From: a virus | DNA: 47,411 nucleotides | Direction: 5' to 3' (one strand) | Virus record (IMG/VR): IMGVR_UViG_3300017917_002544 | Coordinates: 1 to 47,411 of that record | Shown: piece after piece, positions 5,952 through 42,994 of the stretch | Layout of the letters: each line of letters begins with the position of its first letter | Numbering within the stretch: the first letter of the stretch is position 1 | Made by a program: the position numbers and the translations under genes | The notes under the pieces: generated by a model | Database searches by the model: none | What the model saw: only the letters and a program-made list of their open reading frames with translations | What the model was told of the DNA's origin: nothing

Positions 5952-7328
5952 TTAAACTGTTTGATTTCTTTCTTGTCGTCTTCTTAACATTTCCGCCGCT
6001 CTTGCCGCATTGTTTTGAACTTTTTGTTCTTCCATACCTAATAAGGTATTTTGTGATTCAGTATCGATTAATAATAATTTATTATCGAACTTACAATTTT
6101 GCCAAACAACACCGTCTTGTCCGATACGAGACTTAAGTAATGATAGTGTTGCTAATCCATGTTCTTTTTGTTCCAATGTCTTTGCAATTGAAACAATGAT
6201 GTGGGCAATTTGTGCTTTCTTAATTGAACCACCCATTTGGTCTGATGTAACCACTTCTGATGAAATGGAATCACGGCTACCTTGTGTGGCGGTCCAAATA
6301 GCGATATCAAATTCAGTTGTCATCGATTCTAAATGTCTCATGACCGAACCTTCACCTTTCCATTCTTCACCATTTGTTGATTTATCGTTACTGATACAAT
6401 CAACATAGTCGATGATTAGTAAATCAATTTTAAATCCTTCAGAAGCGTACTTACGAATTTTATTTTTGATGTCAGAAACAGTTACACTATCACTTGGGAA
6501 TTTCAATAACTTTAATTTACCTTTTGAACGTGTTTCTGCTTCCATTACTTTTTCTTTTACCTCATCAGCATATTGTGGTTGTTCATCCGGTTCAATACCT
6601 GTCCAAATTGTATAGTGTTTTCTTTTGATGGCACCGGGATTATCTTCAAAGAATATTTGTAACACATTCATATCATGATTGAATGCTGTATTACCAATCT
6701 TAGTCAAGATAGTTGTTTTACCTGTACCGGTTGGTGCTAAAATAATTCCAAGTTCACCAATACCAATACCACCTTTTAAAAGGTTATCTAAACCCGAAAT
6801 ACCTGTTGGAATTGTTCGACGGTAATCCTTTTCTAATGCCGAGTCAATATCATGAAAAACGTCAGTAGCATCATCACCTTCAATACCCACTTGGAGTGCT
6901 TTCTGAATAATTTGTTCAATCTTATTGTACTCTTCAAAATTACCGTTCTCAATAATGTTTGTTACTAACTTTAATTCCTTTTTTAAATTCTGTTGTTTAC
7001 AAAAATTAAGAGCGGTATCCTTAACAAAGGATGTATCGGTATCGATATTCTTAATCTGTTCTAACGTATCAAGATGAATTCTGTTATTATCACGATTTGA
7101 ACTTTCGTTCATAATTTTTTGTGATAACGTCTCATACGTTGGGATTTTGTTGTAATCAACAAATAATTCTTTTAGGTTTTCAATGATGTAGCGAAAAGAG
7201 TTGTTGTCAAAAAATTTAGTTTCTAATACGTCAATAATTGTTTCCCCAAACTTTTTGTCCTCAATAATCGCCTTAATCAACGATTGTTGAAAGGAAAAGC
7301 CTAGATATCCAAAATTTCTTTCTTCCAT
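5952..7328 (-). CDS. Replicative DNA helicase, DnaB/gp41-type
   Basis: This 458-residue RecA-fold helicase is expected to form a hexamer and unwind DNA at the phage fork. Residues 1-150 form an alpha-helical N-terminal domain. The ATPase core starts near residue 172 ([15 protein letters not shown]). Walker A is APTGTGKTT at 198-206 and Walker B is [10 protein letters not shown] at 301-310. A later [20 protein letters not shown] segment matches the DnaB-family H3/H4 motifs, and the family's terminal arginine-containing block is present ([10 protein letters not shown]). It lies 4 nt upstream of nrdB and downstream of the exonuclease, as expected for a replication operon. No separate DnaG-type primase was seen in this window. 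Confidence 0.92.
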
Positions 7329-15943: not shown

Positions 15944-15953
15944 TTATAAATAT
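15944..15953 (-). promoter_or_regulatory. TATTTAT motif before the 67-residue gene
   Basis: Minus strand ATATTTATAA, 12 nt before the ATG. It lies in the 42-nt gap after the 1916-residue baseplate gene and is identical to the copies before the sheath gene and the BppU-like gene. Confidence 0.5.
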
Positions 15954-26942: not shown

Positions 26943-28901
26943 TTATGATATGTACATTCTCTCAGCTTTTGATGCTTTTTCGTATTGTCTCATATCATCA
27001 GGGTCTTCATCGTTAAATGCAACACCCATAGCACTATTTTGAATTGATTGTGTTCTTATTTTATCTAACACATTATCCGCATAAAATTCATGTCTATATG
27101 TTACTTTTTTCTCTATAACTTGTGATGTCCTTTGTTCTCCCGTACTTAAACTTTTCCATGAGTTTTTAATATCTTCAATAAACGCACCAGTTTTAATTGG
27201 TTCTACAATTTTTTTCACAAAATCGGAACCTTGTTCTTTTTGTTCTTGTGCGGTACCTGTACCTCTAAATTCTACCGCTCTTTCTTTTAATTTTGAAATG
27301 ATATTATCCATTTCCGCTTGCTGATATACTTCACCGGCACCTCCTTTTAATTTTCTTGCATATTCCAAAGTGGCATATGATACTAAAACACTCATATCTC
27401 TTGACATTTGTTCTGTTTCAGTTAATTGTTTCATTGCTATGTCTTTGGTATTCATGTCTTTAAATTCATCTCTATTTTCCAATAATTGGTCAGCAATGGT
27501 CTGATTGAATTCATCTAACGCAATTTCAGTAGGTCGATTTAATTTTTTAGCTATACCTTCAGGAATTTCAATAACCATTTTTCCATCTTTCATTCTTGAT
27601 AAATTGGTTAAGAATTCTCTATCTTTTTCATCAACATTTATACCTTGTGCAAACATTGCAGCAGATGCTTGAGTTCTTTCCGCAGATGCTATTGCAATAT
27701 TATTAAGTTCTTTTAAGTCAATGTTTAAAAGTCCCGCCATTTCTTTTGCTCTTCTTAAATTAACACCTGTGACTTCAAATCTTTTCTGTTCATCATTATA
27801 ACTCGCTAAAGAACCCGCAGCACCTATAAGTGCATCTTGTAATCCTTCCATATCATTTGTAGCCATATAAGTTAATTTTAATGGGTCATTAAACGCACCA
27901 ATTGCTCCACCCAAAACTTGTAAATTAGCCGCCAAATCTATTGCACTTTCAGGAGAAAAAACTTTTTCCGCTATACTAGCAACTGAACTCATCGACATTC
28001 TAAATTCTAAGGATTTTTGTACCATTCTGGTTAAACCTTCAACTCCATTTTTAAATCCATATTGATTTAATGTTCCGATATTATCTTTTAAATCTTTTGC
28101 AACTTTTGCCGAACTTAATCCTAAAGATAATGTTTTAGGTGTTAACGCATCAAGAAATTTTGTGGTACCATCTAAACCAATACCTACTTTCTCAAAATCT
28201 GTAGCCGTAGCTGCAAATTCTGATAATCTCATATTTAATGCCGCAGCTACCGGTGATATTTCATCTACTGTTTGTTTGTTAATTAACGCCAATTTACCTG
28301 AATTGGTAACTAATGTAGTATATAACTCAGTAATATTCTCTAACGTATAACCAAATCTAATAGCTTCTCTACTTGCGTCTTGTAAATCTTCTATTAACGC
28401 TTCCGATAATTTTCCTGTTAATGTAGTTTCCCTATTAATGGTGTATCGTGCATCGGTCTCAGCTTGTAATTGTTTAAGAATTTCACTACCCGCAATCTTC
28501 ACAAACTCAACACCATTTTTAAATGGATTAATACCATTTTTTACTATGGATTCAAATATTGTATTAAGTTTATCAAAATCCTGATTTAAATAAGTTTTGT
28601 CAGTTATTTGAGATTTATAAAGTGATTGTATTCCCCCCGCTAAAGCCTTTATCACGTCATTTCCCATAGTAAGACCTTTTTCCAATTTTTCGAACACGCC
28701 AGTTGACGGTCCAGAACTTTCTGCTGTTCCGGCGGTAGTGCTGCTTGAACCACTTACTGGAAATTTTGAACTTAATCTTTTATAAAATTCATCTTGATTC
28801 AATTTATTTCCACTCAGAACATTCGCATTGAAATTCTTAATAGCTTCTTCTCTATTTTTAGCGTTGTCTATAATTGATTTTAGGGTTTCTACTGTTGCCA
28901 T
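26943..28901 (-). CDS. Tape measure protein
   Basis: This 652-residue, largely helical protein is placed between the tube/assembly genes and the baseplate genes, the standard position of tape measure proteins. The central part (ISPVAAALNMRLSEFAATAT, GLSSAKVAKDL, MSMSSVASIAEKVF) has the Ala/Leu/Ser-rich helical pattern seen in phage tape measures. The length is close to T4 gp29 (590 residues); at roughly 0.15 nm per residue it predicts a tail near 100 nm. No membrane-spanning hydrophobic stretch or lytic domain is obvious. The identification rests on gene order and composition rather than one diagnostic motif. Confidence 0.8.
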   Translation of the reverse strand: MATVETLKSIIDNAKNREEAIKNFNANVLSGNKLNQDEFYKRLSSKFPVSGSSSTTAGTAESSGPSTGVFEKLEKGLTMGNDVIKALAGGIQSLYKSQITDKTYLNQDFDKLNTIFESIVKNGINPFKNGVEFVKIAGSEILKQLQAETDARYTINRETTLTGKLSEALIEDLQDASREAIRFGYTLENITELYTTLVTNSGKLALINKQTVDEISPVAAALNMRLSEFAATATDFEKVGIGLDGTTKFLDALTPKTLSLGLSSAKVAKDLKDNIGTLNQYGFKNGVEGLTRMVQKSLEFRMSMSSVASIAEKVFSPESAIDLAANLQVLGGAIGAFNDPLKLTYMATNDMEGLQDALIGAAGSLASYNDEQKRFEVTGVNLRRAKEMAGLLNIDLKELNNIAIASAERTQASAAMFAQGINVDEKDREFLTNLSRMKDGKMVIEIPEGIAKKLNRPTEIALDEFNQTIADQLLENRDEFKDMNTKDIAMKQLTETEQMSRDMSVLVSYATLEYARKLKGGAGEVYQQAEMDNIISKLKERAVEFRGTGTAQEQKEQGSDFVKKIVEPIKTGAFIEDIKNSWKSLSTGEQRTSQVIEKKVTYRHEFYADNVLDKIRTQSIQNSAMGVAFNDEDPDDMRQYEKASKAERMYIS

Positions 28902-28905
28902 AACA

Positions 28906-28914
28906 TATAAATAG
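28906..28914 (-). promoter_or_regulatory. TATTTAT motif before the tape measure gene
   Basis: Minus strand CTATTTATA, ending 4 nt before the tape measure ATG. The short spacing resembles that at gp25 and the BppU-like gene. Confidence 0.45.
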
Positions 28915-28922
28915 ATTAGATT

Positions 28923-29060
28923 TTATTTTTCAGTTTCCATTTCAATTATATACTCAATATAAAATCTTCTAACATATACAGGCATACTTAGTATATCACC
29001 ATATGTGAATCCTTTCTTAACCAAAAATAATATTTCCTGAAGTTGATTTTTCTTATATTC
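28923..29060 (-). CDS. Start-less ORF extending the gp26-like gene, probable +1 frameshift product
   Basis: Downstream of the gp26-like stop, the +1 frame is open from about 29130 to a TAA at 28923-28925. The 45 codons past the upstream stop read like a folded helical domain (EYKKNQLQEILFLVKKGFTY, then GDILSMPVYVRRFYIEYIIE). There is no ATG until the last 20 codons. At 29079-29073 the upstream frame reads TTT TTT C, where a +1 slip would pair Phe tRNA with TTC and enter this frame. The location, between tail tube and tape measure, is where lambda, P2 and Mu make frameshifted tail-assembly chaperones. A homopolymer sequencing error in the T6 run is the main alternative. Confidence 0.65.
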   Translation of the reverse strand, partial: EYKKNQLQEILFLVKKGFTYGDILSMPVYVRRFYIEYIIEMETEK

Positions 29061-29802
29061 CGTAGAAAGGGCGAAAAAATTCAACCCCGAATCCAATTTC
29101 GATTTGGATTGTGTCTCCTGACGGGGTAGTTACATTTTGGACTAAATCCAGTCCGGGTTTATTATTTTCTACAAACTTTCTAAAGTCTTGTGAATCTTTT
29201 ATTGGGAGATTTTCTGTAAAGTTTTTAATCATTAAAAGGTCTCTGCTACCTTCCACTGATTTAATCATGAATTCTAATTGTTTAGTAATAATTGGTGCAA
29301 CACCTTGACCATTCCAACTATTTTTAATTGCATTAATATCATCAAGTTGTTTTCTTGTTAAAAAGGTAAAAGTAACATTTTTCTTACAAACAGGCATAAA
29401 ATACGAATATTCACCATTACTATCAGCCTCCAATGTGAAATCTTTAATTTTTAATGACGATATATCACAAACATATTCAAATTCTTTTTGTGTTTTTGAA
29501 TCATATGCGGTAATTGTATAATCTGAACCGAATGCGGTGTTTCTTAAGAAAATTAAAATAGCCATTCTATCTTCATCAACTAAATCATCCACAGAAATAT
29601 CTTTATCAAGGACTTTTCTACGTAATAACTCATCAGTCGTTCCGTTACTTGCTATTAAACTTGGTGATGATAAAATATTTTCATCTGAAGCAGTTAGATA
29701 GGATACCCTAACTGACTTCTTCTTGTTTGGGTAATATAACCCTTGACTTGGTAATTGTACTACGTCATATGAAATTGACGGGTCTATTCTGTATTCTTCC
29801 AT
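29053..29802 (-). CDS. T4 gp26-like baseplate/tail assembly protein (chaperone candidate)
   Basis: This 249-residue protein resembles the T4 gp26 baseplate-hub family (recalled as Pfam T4_baseplate), with the N-terminal LPSQGLYYPNKKKSVRVSYL pattern and then TASDENIL. T4 gp26 has 208 residues. It lies between the tail tube and tape measure genes, the site of tail-assembly chaperones in other myoviruses. Its 3' end carries a TTT TTT C sequence leading into a start-less ORF, suggesting a longer frameshift form. A weaker CTATTTAC element lies about 30 nt upstream of its ATG (29833-29840), after the tube terminator. Whether it is a structural hub part or a chaperone cannot be decided from sequence. 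Confidence 0.75.
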   Translation of the reverse strand: MEEYRIDPSISYDVVQLPSQGLYYPNKKKSVRVSYLTASDENILSSPSLIASNGTTDELLRRKVLDKDISVDDLVDEDRMAILIFLRNTAFGSDYTITAYDSKTQKEFEYVCDISSLKIKDFTLEADSNGEYSYFMPVCKKNVTFTFLTRKQLDDINAIKNSWNGQGVAPIITKQLEFMIKSVEGSRDLLMIKNFTENLPIKDSQDFRKFVENNKPGLDLVQNVTTPSGDTIQIEIGFGVEFFRPFYGI

Positions 29803-29904: not shown

Positions 29905-30393
29905 TTAAAATATTTGAATACATCTATCCATTCTCAATCCTGTTGTGATTGTTGCAATAGAATCTTGAGAATAATCTAAAGTACCAAAATCTACAGAAGT
30001 TAAGAATGCACCCTCAATACGCCATTTTTCAACAACAACACCTGTTGGGTCTAACATCTCTAATTCAATGTCTTTCTTATATCCAGCAGCATAACCCATA
30101 CGACCTGTTACAGATTCTGCATGTAAACGGAACCATTCCATTAATGCTTGTGAAGCTGAAGGTCCAATTGGGTCTTTAAATGTAACTGTCATTTCATCCC
30201 AAGTAAATCTTCCAGCTACATAAGTTGAAGTATTTAAAAAAGGAATTTCAACTGGAGTAATTTTAGCTGAAGGTCTCTTTGTTGAAGTAACATACCATTC
30301 GTTAATTCCCATAGTCGCAGGAAAACGAAGAATAAATCGATTAGTTCTTTTCGGTTCAAACGGAACCGGCATTTTCATTAATAAATCTGCCAT
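29905..30393 (-). CDS. Tail tube protein, gp19-like
   Basis: This 162-residue protein matches the T4 gp19 tail tube family in length (T4: 163 residues) and pattern. The N-terminus reads FEPKRTNRFILRFPATMGIN, followed by KRPSAKITPVEIPFLN. A TFKDPIGPSASQALMEWFRL segment and a C-terminal DFGTLDYSQDSIATITTGLR strand follow. It polymerises on the baseplate to form the inner DNA channel inside the sheath. It is a single-gene unit: a long upstream spacer with palindromes and a TATTTAT motif precedes it, and a terminator follows. That fits independent high expression. Confidence 0.96.
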   Translation of the reverse strand: MADLLMKMPVPFEPKRTNRFILRFPATMGINEWYVTSTKRPSAKITPVEIPFLNTSTYVAGRFTWDEMTVTFKDPIGPSASQALMEWFRLHAESVTGRMGYAAGYKKDIELEMLDPTGVVVEKWRIEGAFLTSVDFGTLDYSQDSIATITTGLRMDRCIQIF

Positions 30394-30686: not shown

Positions 30687-33557
30687 TTAAATGTTCTCAA
30701 AAGATGCTCCTGTAGGAGTAATGATGAATTCCAAATCAATGAATTCAAGAGAACGAGTTGGCTTGATATAAATCTTACCTCTTAAAGTATTTGCATCAAT
30801 ATCCTCTGGGTCATTTGATACTGTTACTTTAAATTCTGTTAAACCTCTTTCTTTCTTAATTGATTCAAGAATTGGGTTAACCAATCTTAAGAATTCTTGT
30901 CTTACTTGCTCATCGTTTTGTTCGAACAATAATCTTACCGCAACCGCTGAAATTAATTTTCTTGCTCTTAACAATAATCTTCTTACGTTAATTCTGTCAA
31001 GTGCAGATTCTTTAACTTGTAATGTTTTGTTACCCCAAATAATCGTACCTGTATCTGCAAATGTTGCGATAGGATTGATTCTGTTTTTGTATAGAGTATC
31101 TCTCTCATCATTAGTTAATTTTTTAGTTGCTTTGATTGCATTTACTAAACCTCTTGTATAACCCGCCGGAGCAAACCAAGGATAAGCCACATTATCAGTT
31201 AATGCAATATTCTTCAATACTTCACCTGTTGGTGGAATGTATAGTTGAGTTGCGTTATCTGTGTCTCTTACCTGAATCCATGGCCAATAAGTTGCAGAGT
31301 AGTTAGAATCGATTGAAACAGCGTCCAATGAATCAACTATTTGGTCGGCACCTGTTGTACCTGTAATGTTTGGTGAGTTAATAATGTAAAGTGAGTCTGC
31401 TCTTTCATTCTCAATTATATCAATTGCTTGATTAACTAATGAACTATGTGTTTCAAAGTTAATACCCGGCGTTGCGAATAAGTTAATATCAACAGCTTCA
31501 GGGTTTGCAAATGTATTAATACCATCTAAATAAGCATAGTAATCAGAGTTACCAGCGGTTGTACTAAACACACCACCGTTAGCAGTATTTCCTGATGTAT
31601 ATATTGACTTATTGAAAACGTAATCGTCACCATAAGTTCTTACGTTTCTGTATATATCCCAACCATCATATCCACCATTCACAGCGAAAGTGAATTTACG
31701 GTAATTGATGTTTGACAATAAACCTTTATCAGTACCTTCCAAATCATAAGGTGATGCTTGATAAGCGTATCCTGAAGGAGTTGAACCTGTAATTGTTGCC
31801 GCTTGACTTGACAAGTGGAAACCGTATGTTACACCAGCTGCCGCTGTACCTTTAAATTTCAATAAGTCACTATCAAAACCAAATTGTGATGATAAACCTA
31901 AAGATACCTTTTTCACCTTGTCACCACTTGATGTAATTGCTGTACCATCGGCTTCATAACCTGTAACATCACCAGCTACATAGTATTTGGTCTTGAATAA
32001 TGCACTACCCAAAGTTGTTCCTGAGAAACTTGTGTTAGAAGTGAAACCTTTGAAACCAGCTGGAAACGCGTTATCAGGATGACTATCAGCCATACTTAAC
32101 ATAATATATTTTGAACGTAATTCGTATTCACCATCTGATGTACCGATTTTTCTACCAACATATCCTGATGAAGCCGAATTCATATTACATCTTGAGAATT
32201 TCTCCAACACGACTTGATTTTCATCTGTATCATTAAAATCACGAACTATTAAATCAAAATCACCAGAATCGATGTCAATATTTTGAATTGTAATTTTAAC
32301 TTGTGTATTTGCCGCCTCACCATCTGAAATTGTGATAACTTGGAATAATTCGTCTACACTACCACCACGAACTTCAGAAACCACCATCGGCGATGCCGGT
32401 GTGTCCCATTGTGTTCTATATGATGTTCCTTCATCCTCATATGCCAATGAAGTACTCAAACCTATAATGTAACCTTTTTCGTAGGCTGTTTTTAATAAGC
32501 TAGGATATACTTCGTGAACATATAAAGGAAAATCCGCTCTACCTTTATCATAAACTTTAGTACCTAATACTTTAGTGATATATTTTGATGAAGTAGAACT
32601 TAATGAACAAGTAAATGATTTAACACCTGAAGTGGAACCTGTAACATTTAATGTAAATTCAGCTAACGGGTCTGTTTCAGCATCTGTTGTAGATAATGTT
32701 ACTCCTGTATTTGCAGTAACCTCTAACCCCAAAGTTTGACCACTATATGAACCTCTTGAACGTAAAGCCGCAACTGTAATATTGTGGTAATCCGTATTTA
32801 ATTCGGCGTCGAATTTATATCTTGTTACATCAAATGTTGTTGTTCCTGAATTCCATACAAACAAGTACGAATAAACACCATCAATAGTGTCCATAGTTGC
32901 ACCTGTCTTAGTATAATAAACATTATACCAATCTGTATTATTTTTTAAGTCTGCCGGTGAAGTTTGCTCTAAACTTGTTGTCACACCTGTCGTTGCACCT
33001 GTAGTTAAATAACCGATTGAGAACCACTTACCATGGTCAGCACCTGTATATCCACTAAATGTTTCGACAATATATTCAGTCACTGATTGTGTAGAATCTT
33101 GAGTAGATGTCTTTCCTGATAATTCAGCGTATATTGTTGAACCTGTAATTGTTGAGGTAGTTGCAGACATAGTAACACCTGTTGATGTTGGTGACACCAA
33201 ATCAGTTACAGTTACACCACCGATTGTTTTAATACCATAAGTTTTTACAGGAAGATATCCTGTTAAACCTAATACTCTCGTTACGAAAAGTTGATTTGAT
33301 TCTTGTAAATAAGATTTAGCTACGTAAGGTAATTCGTATTTTGGGTTTCCTACTCCGTCTTTTTCAGGAGATGTACCACCAAAATAAGTTTGGAACTCGT
33401 CGAAGTCAGATATTAAAATCGGTTCAAAAGCCGGACCTTTTAATGTCTCACCAACTAATCCCAATGTCGTTACACCAACACTTTGAGCTACGAAAGTTAA
33501 ATCTTTCTCCGATGTGTAAACACCTGGAGATACGAATACTCTATTTGAATTTGCCAT
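30687..33557 (-). CDS. Tail sheath protein, gp18-like
   Basis: The 956-residue protein is the contractile sheath subunit. The N-terminus (VFVSPGVYTSEKDLTF, then GLVGETLKGPAFEPILI) and the C-terminus (RARKLISAVAVRLLFEQND, then EFKVTVSNDPEDIDANTLRG and KIYIKPTRSLEFIDLEFI) are typical of gp18-family sheaths. T4 gp18 has 659 residues; the extra length is in a Ser/Thr/Gly-rich region after about residue 100, probably surface-exposed insertion domains. It forms a single-gene unit with an upstream ATATTTATAA motif and a strong terminator. Sheath identity is firm; the role of the insertion is unknown. Confidence 0.96.
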   Translation of the reverse strand: MANSNRVFVSPGVYTSEKDLTFVAQSVGVTTLGLVGETLKGPAFEPILISDFDEFQTYFGGTSPEKDGVGNPKYELPYVAKSYLQESNQLFVTRVLGLTGYLPVKTYGIKTIGGVTVTDLVSPTSTGVTMSATTSTITGSTIYAELSGKTSTQDSTQSVTEYIVETFSGYTGADHGKWFSIGYLTTGATTGVTTSLEQTSPADLKNNTDWYNVYYTKTGATMDTIDGVYSYLFVWNSGTTTFDVTRYKFDAELNTDYHNITVAALRSRGSYSGQTLGLEVTANTGVTLSTTDAETDPLAEFTLNVTGSTSGVKSFTCSLSSTSSKYITKVLGTKVYDKGRADFPLYVHEVYPSLLKTAYEKGYIIGLSTSLAYEDEGTSYRTQWDTPASPMVVSEVRGGSVDELFQVITISDGEAANTQVKITIQNIDIDSGDFDLIVRDFNDTDENQVVLEKFSRCNMNSASSGYVGRKIGTSDGEYELRSKYIMLSMADSHPDNAFPAGFKGFTSNTSFSGTTLGSALFKTKYYVAGDVTGYEADGTAITSSGDKVKKVSLGLSSQFGFDSDLLKFKGTAAAGVTYGFHLSSQAATITGSTPSGYAYQASPYDLEGTDKGLLSNINYRKFTFAVNGGYDGWDIYRNVRTYGDDYVFNKSIYTSGNTANGGVFSTTAGNSDYYAYLDGINTFANPEAVDINLFATPGINFETHSSLVNQAIDIIENERADSLYIINSPNITGTTGADQIVDSLDAVSIDSNYSATYWPWIQVRDTDNATQLYIPPTGEVLKNIALTDNVAYPWFAPAGYTRGLVNAIKATKKLTNDERDTLYKNRINPIATFADTGTIIWGNKTLQVKESALDRINVRRLLLRARKLISAVAVRLLFEQNDEQVRQEFLRLVNPILESIKKERGLTEFKVTVSNDPEDIDANTLRGKIYIKPTRSLEFIDLEFIITPTGASFENI

Positions 33558-33592: not shown

Positions 33593-33602
33593 TTATAAAT
33601 AT
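33593..33602 (-). promoter_or_regulatory. TATTTAT motif before the sheath gene
   Basis: Minus strand ATATTTATAA, 35 nt before the sheath ATG. It faces a plus-strand copy at 33643, so the gap looks like a divergent promoter region. Confidence 0.5.
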
Positions 33603-35610: not shown

Positions 35611-35619
35611 TATAAATAG
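35611..35619 (-). promoter_or_regulatory. TATTTAT motif before the neck-type gene
   Basis: Minus strand CTATTTATA, 5 nt before the preferred ATG at 35605. It faces the plus-strand copy at 35634. Confidence 0.45.
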
Positions 35620-42984: not shown

Positions 42985-42994
42985 TTATAAATAT
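42985..42994 (-). promoter_or_regulatory. TATTTAT motif before the BppU-like gene
   Basis: Minus strand ATATTTATAA, ending 3 nt before the ATG and lying partly in the end of the fibre gene. Confidence 0.45.

Follow-up and report, generated by a model that had tools for sequence, protein, structure and literature searches.

Putative +1 frameshifting in a probable tail chaperone gene of the T4 gp26 family and proposed routes to its long form among related phages

In related systems, tail-chaperone frameshifts usually go backwards. The closest described arrangement is that of lambda gpG/gpGT, together with P2 E/E' and the -2 case of Mu, in which a short chaperone is encoded between the tail tube and tape measure genes and acquires a C-terminal extension through low-level frameshifting near the 3' end of its gene. 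The locus described here resembles these systems in gene position and, by prediction, in the C-terminal extension. It differs from lambda, which uses a -1 shift, and has another sequence and length (249 and 292 aa in our case); the likeness is one of arrangement.

A 2016 review described G-T frameshifting as conserved in long-tailed phages "except T4" (PMC5009743). That gap was filled by a later paper on tail assembly chaperones (TACs) in the T4-like group (Vladimirov, Gautam and Davidson 2022, Virology 566:9-15; via PMC10885494, PMC12846349), which, as represented in the citing papers, treats the same protein family, with gp26 as the short form, gp51 as the long form and poly-T signals in the TAC-N genes. 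That gp26 acts as a TAC and that T4-like phages use frameshifting was known before, and our reading of gp26 and gp51 agrees with that work as cited. In the citing papers, however, the signals are given as -1 poly-T sequences, whereas the window carries a putative +1 site of the form UUU_CGN/UUU_Y without downstream structure, and a large +1 branch is added here.

Two described systems share the forward direction. The tail frameshift of the haloarchaeal myovirus HSTV-2 has been described as very likely +1 (PMC5009743); the likeness lies in the direction and the difference in the archaeal nature of the virus. The PA-X site of influenza A, UCC_UUU_CGU (Firth et al. 2012, PMC3498833), shares the UUU_CGN core and the +1 direction with the clade of the window (UUU_UUU_CGC or CGU), but its class was proposed for eukaryotic hosts, the gene and the translation machinery are different, and its origin is independent. 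Within the literature searched, where Vladimirov et al. is represented by citing papers, the +1 direction, the UUU_Y/UUU_CGN site and the rare A-site codon are undescribed and appear to be new, as do the spread over lineages of the Flavobacterium-phage type and the switch of direction within one family.

The gp26-like gene and the reading frame overlapping its end

The window is the whole stretch of DNA analysed, 47,411 nucleotides of the IMG/VR record IMGVR_UViG_3300017917_002544. The features of the locus are as follows.

29053..29802, minus strand: gp26-like gene, putative TAC-N (gpG-like); ORF of 249 aa, T4 gp26 family (PF12322/phrog_150)
28923..29129, minus strand: open stretch in the +1 frame, stop to stop, 68 codons
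28926..29072, minus strand: putative TAC-C (gpT-like; T), 49 residues (ALSTEYKK...EMETEK), conserved in all clades
29071..29079, minus strand: putative +1 shift site TTT TTT CGC, from codon conservation among relatives
29085..29088, minus strand: GGGG, conserved in the window clade and 5 nt ahead of the UUU UUU pair
26943..28901, minus strand: the gene that follows (652 aa), placed like a tape measure gene; identity inferred from synteny
29905..30393, minus strand: upstream tail tube gene (gp19-like; PF06841, E 7e-7; phrog_4542, E 6.5e-26)
30687..33557, minus strand: upstream tail sheath gene (PF04984, E 1.8e-15; phrog_23, E 1.7e-63)

The gp26-like gene ends with the codons GTT GAA TTT TTT CGC CCT TTC TAC GGA ATA TAA, and its translation with ...GVEFFRPFYGI. 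The +1 ORF shares 74-77 nt with it and ends at a TAA at 28923-28925. An earlier note, made from the sequence of the window, had reported 45 residues past the gp26 stop; the +1 frame is indeed open there, for 43 codons. The T6 run at which the note placed the overlap (TTT TTT C) was confirmed at 29074-29079, and no ATG occurs before codon 49 of the 68, in keeping with its statement that none is found until the last 20 codons. Its term "start-less" holds for ATG and GTG and is too strict otherwise, TTG codons being present upstream in the +1 frame of the window. At the predicted site, the P-site UUU (29074-29076) would re-pair to UUC (29073-29075) with CGC (29071-29073) in the A site, and post-shift reading would begin with GCC at 29072, extending the 249-aa short form by the +1 frame to a predicted TAC-NC fusion of 292 aa.

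A total of 44 IMG/VR relatives were retrieved, 38 of them spanning the gene end, and 25 were left after removal of near-identical loci. The downstream ORF, which had looked conserved from the sequence of the window, is kept in 38/38 full-length relatives, and so are the frame relation and the slippery site, the points for which the earlier note had proposed an alignment of homologues. The T peptide takes the form FF[AV]LST[ED]YKK..L.EI.FL.K.GF.Y.DI..MP.Y.RR. The two other frames over the T span were open in 0/25 non-redundant loci, and pN/pS in the window clade was 0.31 for the T ORF vs 0.37 for the gp26-like gene. The extra T ORF is under purifying selection. Codon frequencies, here and below, are descriptive only, because the loci share phylogeny and are not independent: at the junction the P-site TTT, CCT and TTC never vary (25/25 each) and GGA and TAC hardly do, while codons for the same amino acids vary freely elsewhere in the gene.

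The +1 frame relation and the shift site are also kept in 73 complete loci of a neighbouring clade, that of Flavobacterium phage Immuto. SP-15, LIS04, SagM-GXN1, RM378 and LR756508 have a +1 T ORF as well, and in these, as in the loci L218-L232 (L227 excepted), L241, L244-L246 and L250, the frame relation and the shift site are again present. Judged by this agreement between contigs, the +1 arrangement is neither chance nor read error. A sequencing error at T6 was rejected with more than 100 loci agreeing on the frame relation, and a homopolymer error was excluded because independent contigs share that relation, several of them without T6 (TTC TTT CGC in L007; TTT CTT TGG in the Immuto clade).

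The gene order is sheath, tube, TAC and tape measure, the tube being identified by Pfam and PHROGs and the tape measure by synteny. Annotations of Immuto, SP-15 and LIS04 name a tape measure gene directly after T; the 652-aa protein of the window matched no Pfam or PHROGs family and did not clearly resemble its Immuto counterpart.

Proposed shift site, direction and alternative explanations

TTY TTT CGN occupies the site in 24 of the 25 non-redundant relatives of the window clade, in the forms TTT TTT CG(C/T/A) and once TTC TTT CGC, and TTT TTT CTC in the remaining one. The Immuto clade has TTT CTT TGG, TTT TTT TGG, TTT CTA TGG and once TTT CTT TAC, and distant loci have TTC TTT CGT, TTT TTT CAC, TTT TTT AGT, TTT CTA TTC or TTC TTT TGG. 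A UUU with U or C after it is shared by all these sites, and throughout the two main +1 clades that UUU is in the P site. The T ORF of the window does not fit the X_XXY_YYZ class of -1 sites, its frame being +1.

CGC, one of the two rarest codons, stands in the A site at 17-18 of the 25 window-clade sites vs 0/204 Arg codons in the gp26 bodies of the clade, and accounts for 4/533 Arg codons across the window. Such a rare A-site codon would suit a +1 mechanism with a slow A site, although the overlapping +1 frame, with its codon GNN, accounts for part of the preference for CGN. In addition, the Gly codon upstream of the site is GGG in 24/24 cases vs 18/221 (8%) of the Gly codons in gp26 bodies, and GGGG is retained in L009, L020, L024 and L026, whose +1 frame is closed; GGGG is perhaps a cis stimulator of the +1 shift. 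No stimulatory RNA structure was found downstream of the +1 sites (z -0.7 to +1.5), and RNAalifold returned one small stem at the slip site and a second stem beyond it, both nearly devoid of covariation. Elsewhere in the main genes of the window, TTT CGC occurs in frame once, at codon 45 of the gene at 5952-7328 and away from any gene end; this copy is probably harmless, though a possible background slip site.

The earlier note had left the direction as +1 (or -2). A -2 shift as in Mu reaches the same frame, and the T6 run of the window permits re-pairing two bases back. The +1 shift is preferred because UUU before U or C lets the same tRNA-Phe re-pair, whereas -2 re-pairing is often spoiled: it is blocked in the P site by TTC TTT CGC (L007) and TTC TTT TGG (L218-L232), and likewise by ACC TTT CTT TGG and TTT CTA TGG in the Immuto clade, while the step one base forward, from UUU to UUC or UUU, works in all these loci. 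With re-pairing possible at all main-clade sites, +1 is the best explanation, and we consider -2 very improbable. Slippage of RNA polymerase on T6, giving a mixed mRNA pool and from it the fusion, would suit the T6 homopolymer of the window, which most relatives share, but six T are short for such slippage and the same frame relation is found with only T3 (TTTCTTTGG) or an interrupted run in many loci; its chance appears smaller still.

Alternatively, T might be a separate small protein, made by re-initiation or internal initiation at a TTG or other weak codon at the end of gp26, with no fusion formed. NTG codons do occur in the T frame of several relatives, the TTG codons upstream in the +1 frame of the window make internal initiation formally possible, an ATG lies 5 nt after the start of the gp26 stop in about half of the cyanophage loci, and S-PM2 gp51 and Mel-JY01 are annotated as separate products. 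However, ATG, GTG and TTG are all absent from the T frame, up to +12 from the gp26 stop, in 5/25, 10/49 and 19/50 non-redundant loci of three clades. Some relatives have a stop in the +1 frame 26 nt ahead of the gp26 stop, which leaves them without any start codon; in the L218-L232 group, the open +1 stretch of most members begins 20 nt ahead of the gp26 stop, and a start is missing from most. Start positions vary but slippery codons are invariant, and conservation begins at the FF codons, in many loci upstream of any possible start. Homologues in which T has its own start, which the earlier note had regarded as evidence against a shift, do exist: in L227 and L233, an ATG clearly belongs to T itself, which lies in another frame and is longer by about 20 residues at its N-terminus, but exactly there the slip codon is TTC instead of TTT. 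As read from their codons, these two loci are a natural control, in which a start was gained and the slippery codon lost; they also indicate that the fusion can be dispensed with in some cases. Separate initiation of T in place of a fusion is, in our judgement, improbable, though less so than either a -2 shift or transcriptional slippage.

Family membership and proposed function

The gp26-like protein of the window matched phrog_150 ("baseplate hub") with E 6.7e-6 over 15-244, and PF12322 with E 4e-4 and 20.6 bits, below the cut-off of 24.5, which is passed by the clade member L040 (33.8 bits) and by SP-15 (100 bits). Profile-profile comparison links the window clade to the SP-15 group (98.7%), the SP-15 group to the cyanophages (95.5%) and the cyanophages to T4 gp26 (97.2%); by profile homology, the window protein belongs to the T4 gp26 family. 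Along the 282 positions of phrog_150, T4 gp51 covers 13-280, T4 gp26 14-235 and S-PM2 "gp51" 240-281. Because of this coverage, T4 gp26 is assigned as the short N form, T4 gp51 as the long NC form and cyanophage "gp51" as the C part only.

For the T domain, the profile of window and Immuto T matched that of cyanophage T at 90.8%, and cyanophage T matched the C-terminus of T4 gp51 at 74% by profile and 2.6e-9 by hmmsearch. Direct comparison of window T with T4 gp51 was not significant, and BLAST of the window fusion against T4 gp51 gave no match; the probable link came from profiles. Mel-JY01 was the sole match to the T ORF by tblastn in the phage collection, and a PDB sequence search with the gp26 profile returned chance matches only, e.g., Rab-8A.

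The gp26-like protein and the T domain were modelled separately with AlphaFold2, each with a pLDDT of 87, and the T model consists of three helices. Among solved structures, only the HK97 tail assembly chaperone gp13 (2ob9, Z 5.3) and B. subtilis YqbN (3klu, Z 5.0) matched the gp26 model with Z of at least 5, the next match being at 2.4. These best structural matches are modest, covering 77-80 residues (about residues 127-216 of the gp26-like protein) at 4-5% identity. YqbN belongs to the XkdN family of tail chaperones. Foldseek alone found no significant match for the gp26 model, and the T domain alone had no significant fold match.

Taken together, it is highly probable that the gp26-like protein is TAC-N (G) and T is TAC-C, and that the 292-aa TAC-NC would arise by +1 slippage from UUU to UUC at CGC. 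The evidence is drawn entirely from sequence and shows conservation, selection, homology and gene order; the shift in vivo, its efficiency, the pause at the rare codon and the protein interactions are inferred. The gp26-like gene would give the short chaperone TAC-N, the equivalent of lambda gpG. A minority of ribosomes would pause on the rare CGC at the A site, the P-site tRNA-Phe would slip forward from UUU to UUC during the pause, and reading onward in the +1 frame would yield TAC-NC, the gpGT equivalent, with its three-helix C-terminal domain. By analogy with lambda (PMC5009743), TAC-N would coat the tape measure protein, the product of the following gene, and a few copies of TAC-NC would recruit tail tube subunits. 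The chaperone role and G/GT-type traits proposed in the earlier note are supported by gene order, the overlapping conserved ORF and family profiles; its link between T4 gp26 and the G/GT system was right, but had already been published, as far as the citing papers (PMC10885494, PMC12846349) report it.

Proposed routes to the long form across the family

Within the family, the long form is proposed to arise in different ways: by a +1 shift at UUU_Y in the Bacteroidota-type T4-like phages, by a -1 shift at U_UUU_UUC, helped by a stem-loop, in the cyanophages, and in T4 from a full-length duplicate gene, gp51; in a few loci T is a separate gene that starts at an ATG of its own and has lost the slip codon. 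In the Synechococcus phage S-PM2, the gene after gp26, "gp51" of 57 aa, is the equivalent of T in the -1 frame. In the cyanophage loci compared, gp26 finishes with T TTT TTC, one further codon and the stop, and the -1 frame after the heptamer reads FFR and then the T domain. The heptamer U_UUU_UUC was present in 50/50 non-redundant cyanophage loci vs a background TTC usage of 30%, and outside cyanophages only in LR756511 and L238. In the S-PM2 group, a stem-loop of 10-16 bp lies about 9 nt past the heptamer (z -2.5 to -4.2), and one of its pairs changes from C-G to U-A in three sequences, i.e., with compensation. At the gp26/gp51 junction it occupies positions 3183-3240 of L137 and recurs in the relatives L138-L160. 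Among the -1 sites, downstream stem-loops were confined to this group and a few others there. The S-PM2-group stem-loop is likely to be a -1 frameshift stimulator.

No recognisable T ORF was found in the Bacteroidales gp26 relatives L239, L242, L248 and L249 (Prevotellaceae, Odoribacter and Bacteroidaceae MAG contigs), and in L243 an ORF of about 970 codons begins at a TGATG overlap with gp26. Here the long form may have disappeared or may come from another part of the genome.

With some reserve, we favour the broader view that one chaperone family keeps a short/long pair while the route to it varies (+1, -1, separate T or duplicate gp51), and that the +1 site would be a bacterial-phage example of UUU_CGN, driven by the rare codon and perhaps GGGG. 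This suggests that selection holds the two-protein output and not the direction of slippage. The natural series of +1, -1, separate start and duplicated gene offers a compact set for testing frameshift signals. Additionally, annotations can be corrected in Immuto, SP-15, LIS04 and Mel-JY01, where the tail of the long form is a "hypothetical protein" or left blank.

Two further observations concern the neighbouring genes. The tail sheath, at 956 aa, is unusually long, and its family match is confined to the C-terminal half, which suggests large surface insertions. The octamer TATTTATA closely precedes the start of several genes on their coding strand, with minus-strand copies at 28906-28913, 33594-33601, 35611-35618, 42986-42993 and 15945-15952; its total count in the window shows no excess over chance. 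TATTTAT before the tape measure gene is invariant in 18/18 relatives. Read in reverse complement, the octamer is the T4 late promoter core TATAAATA, and it is possibly a late promoter.
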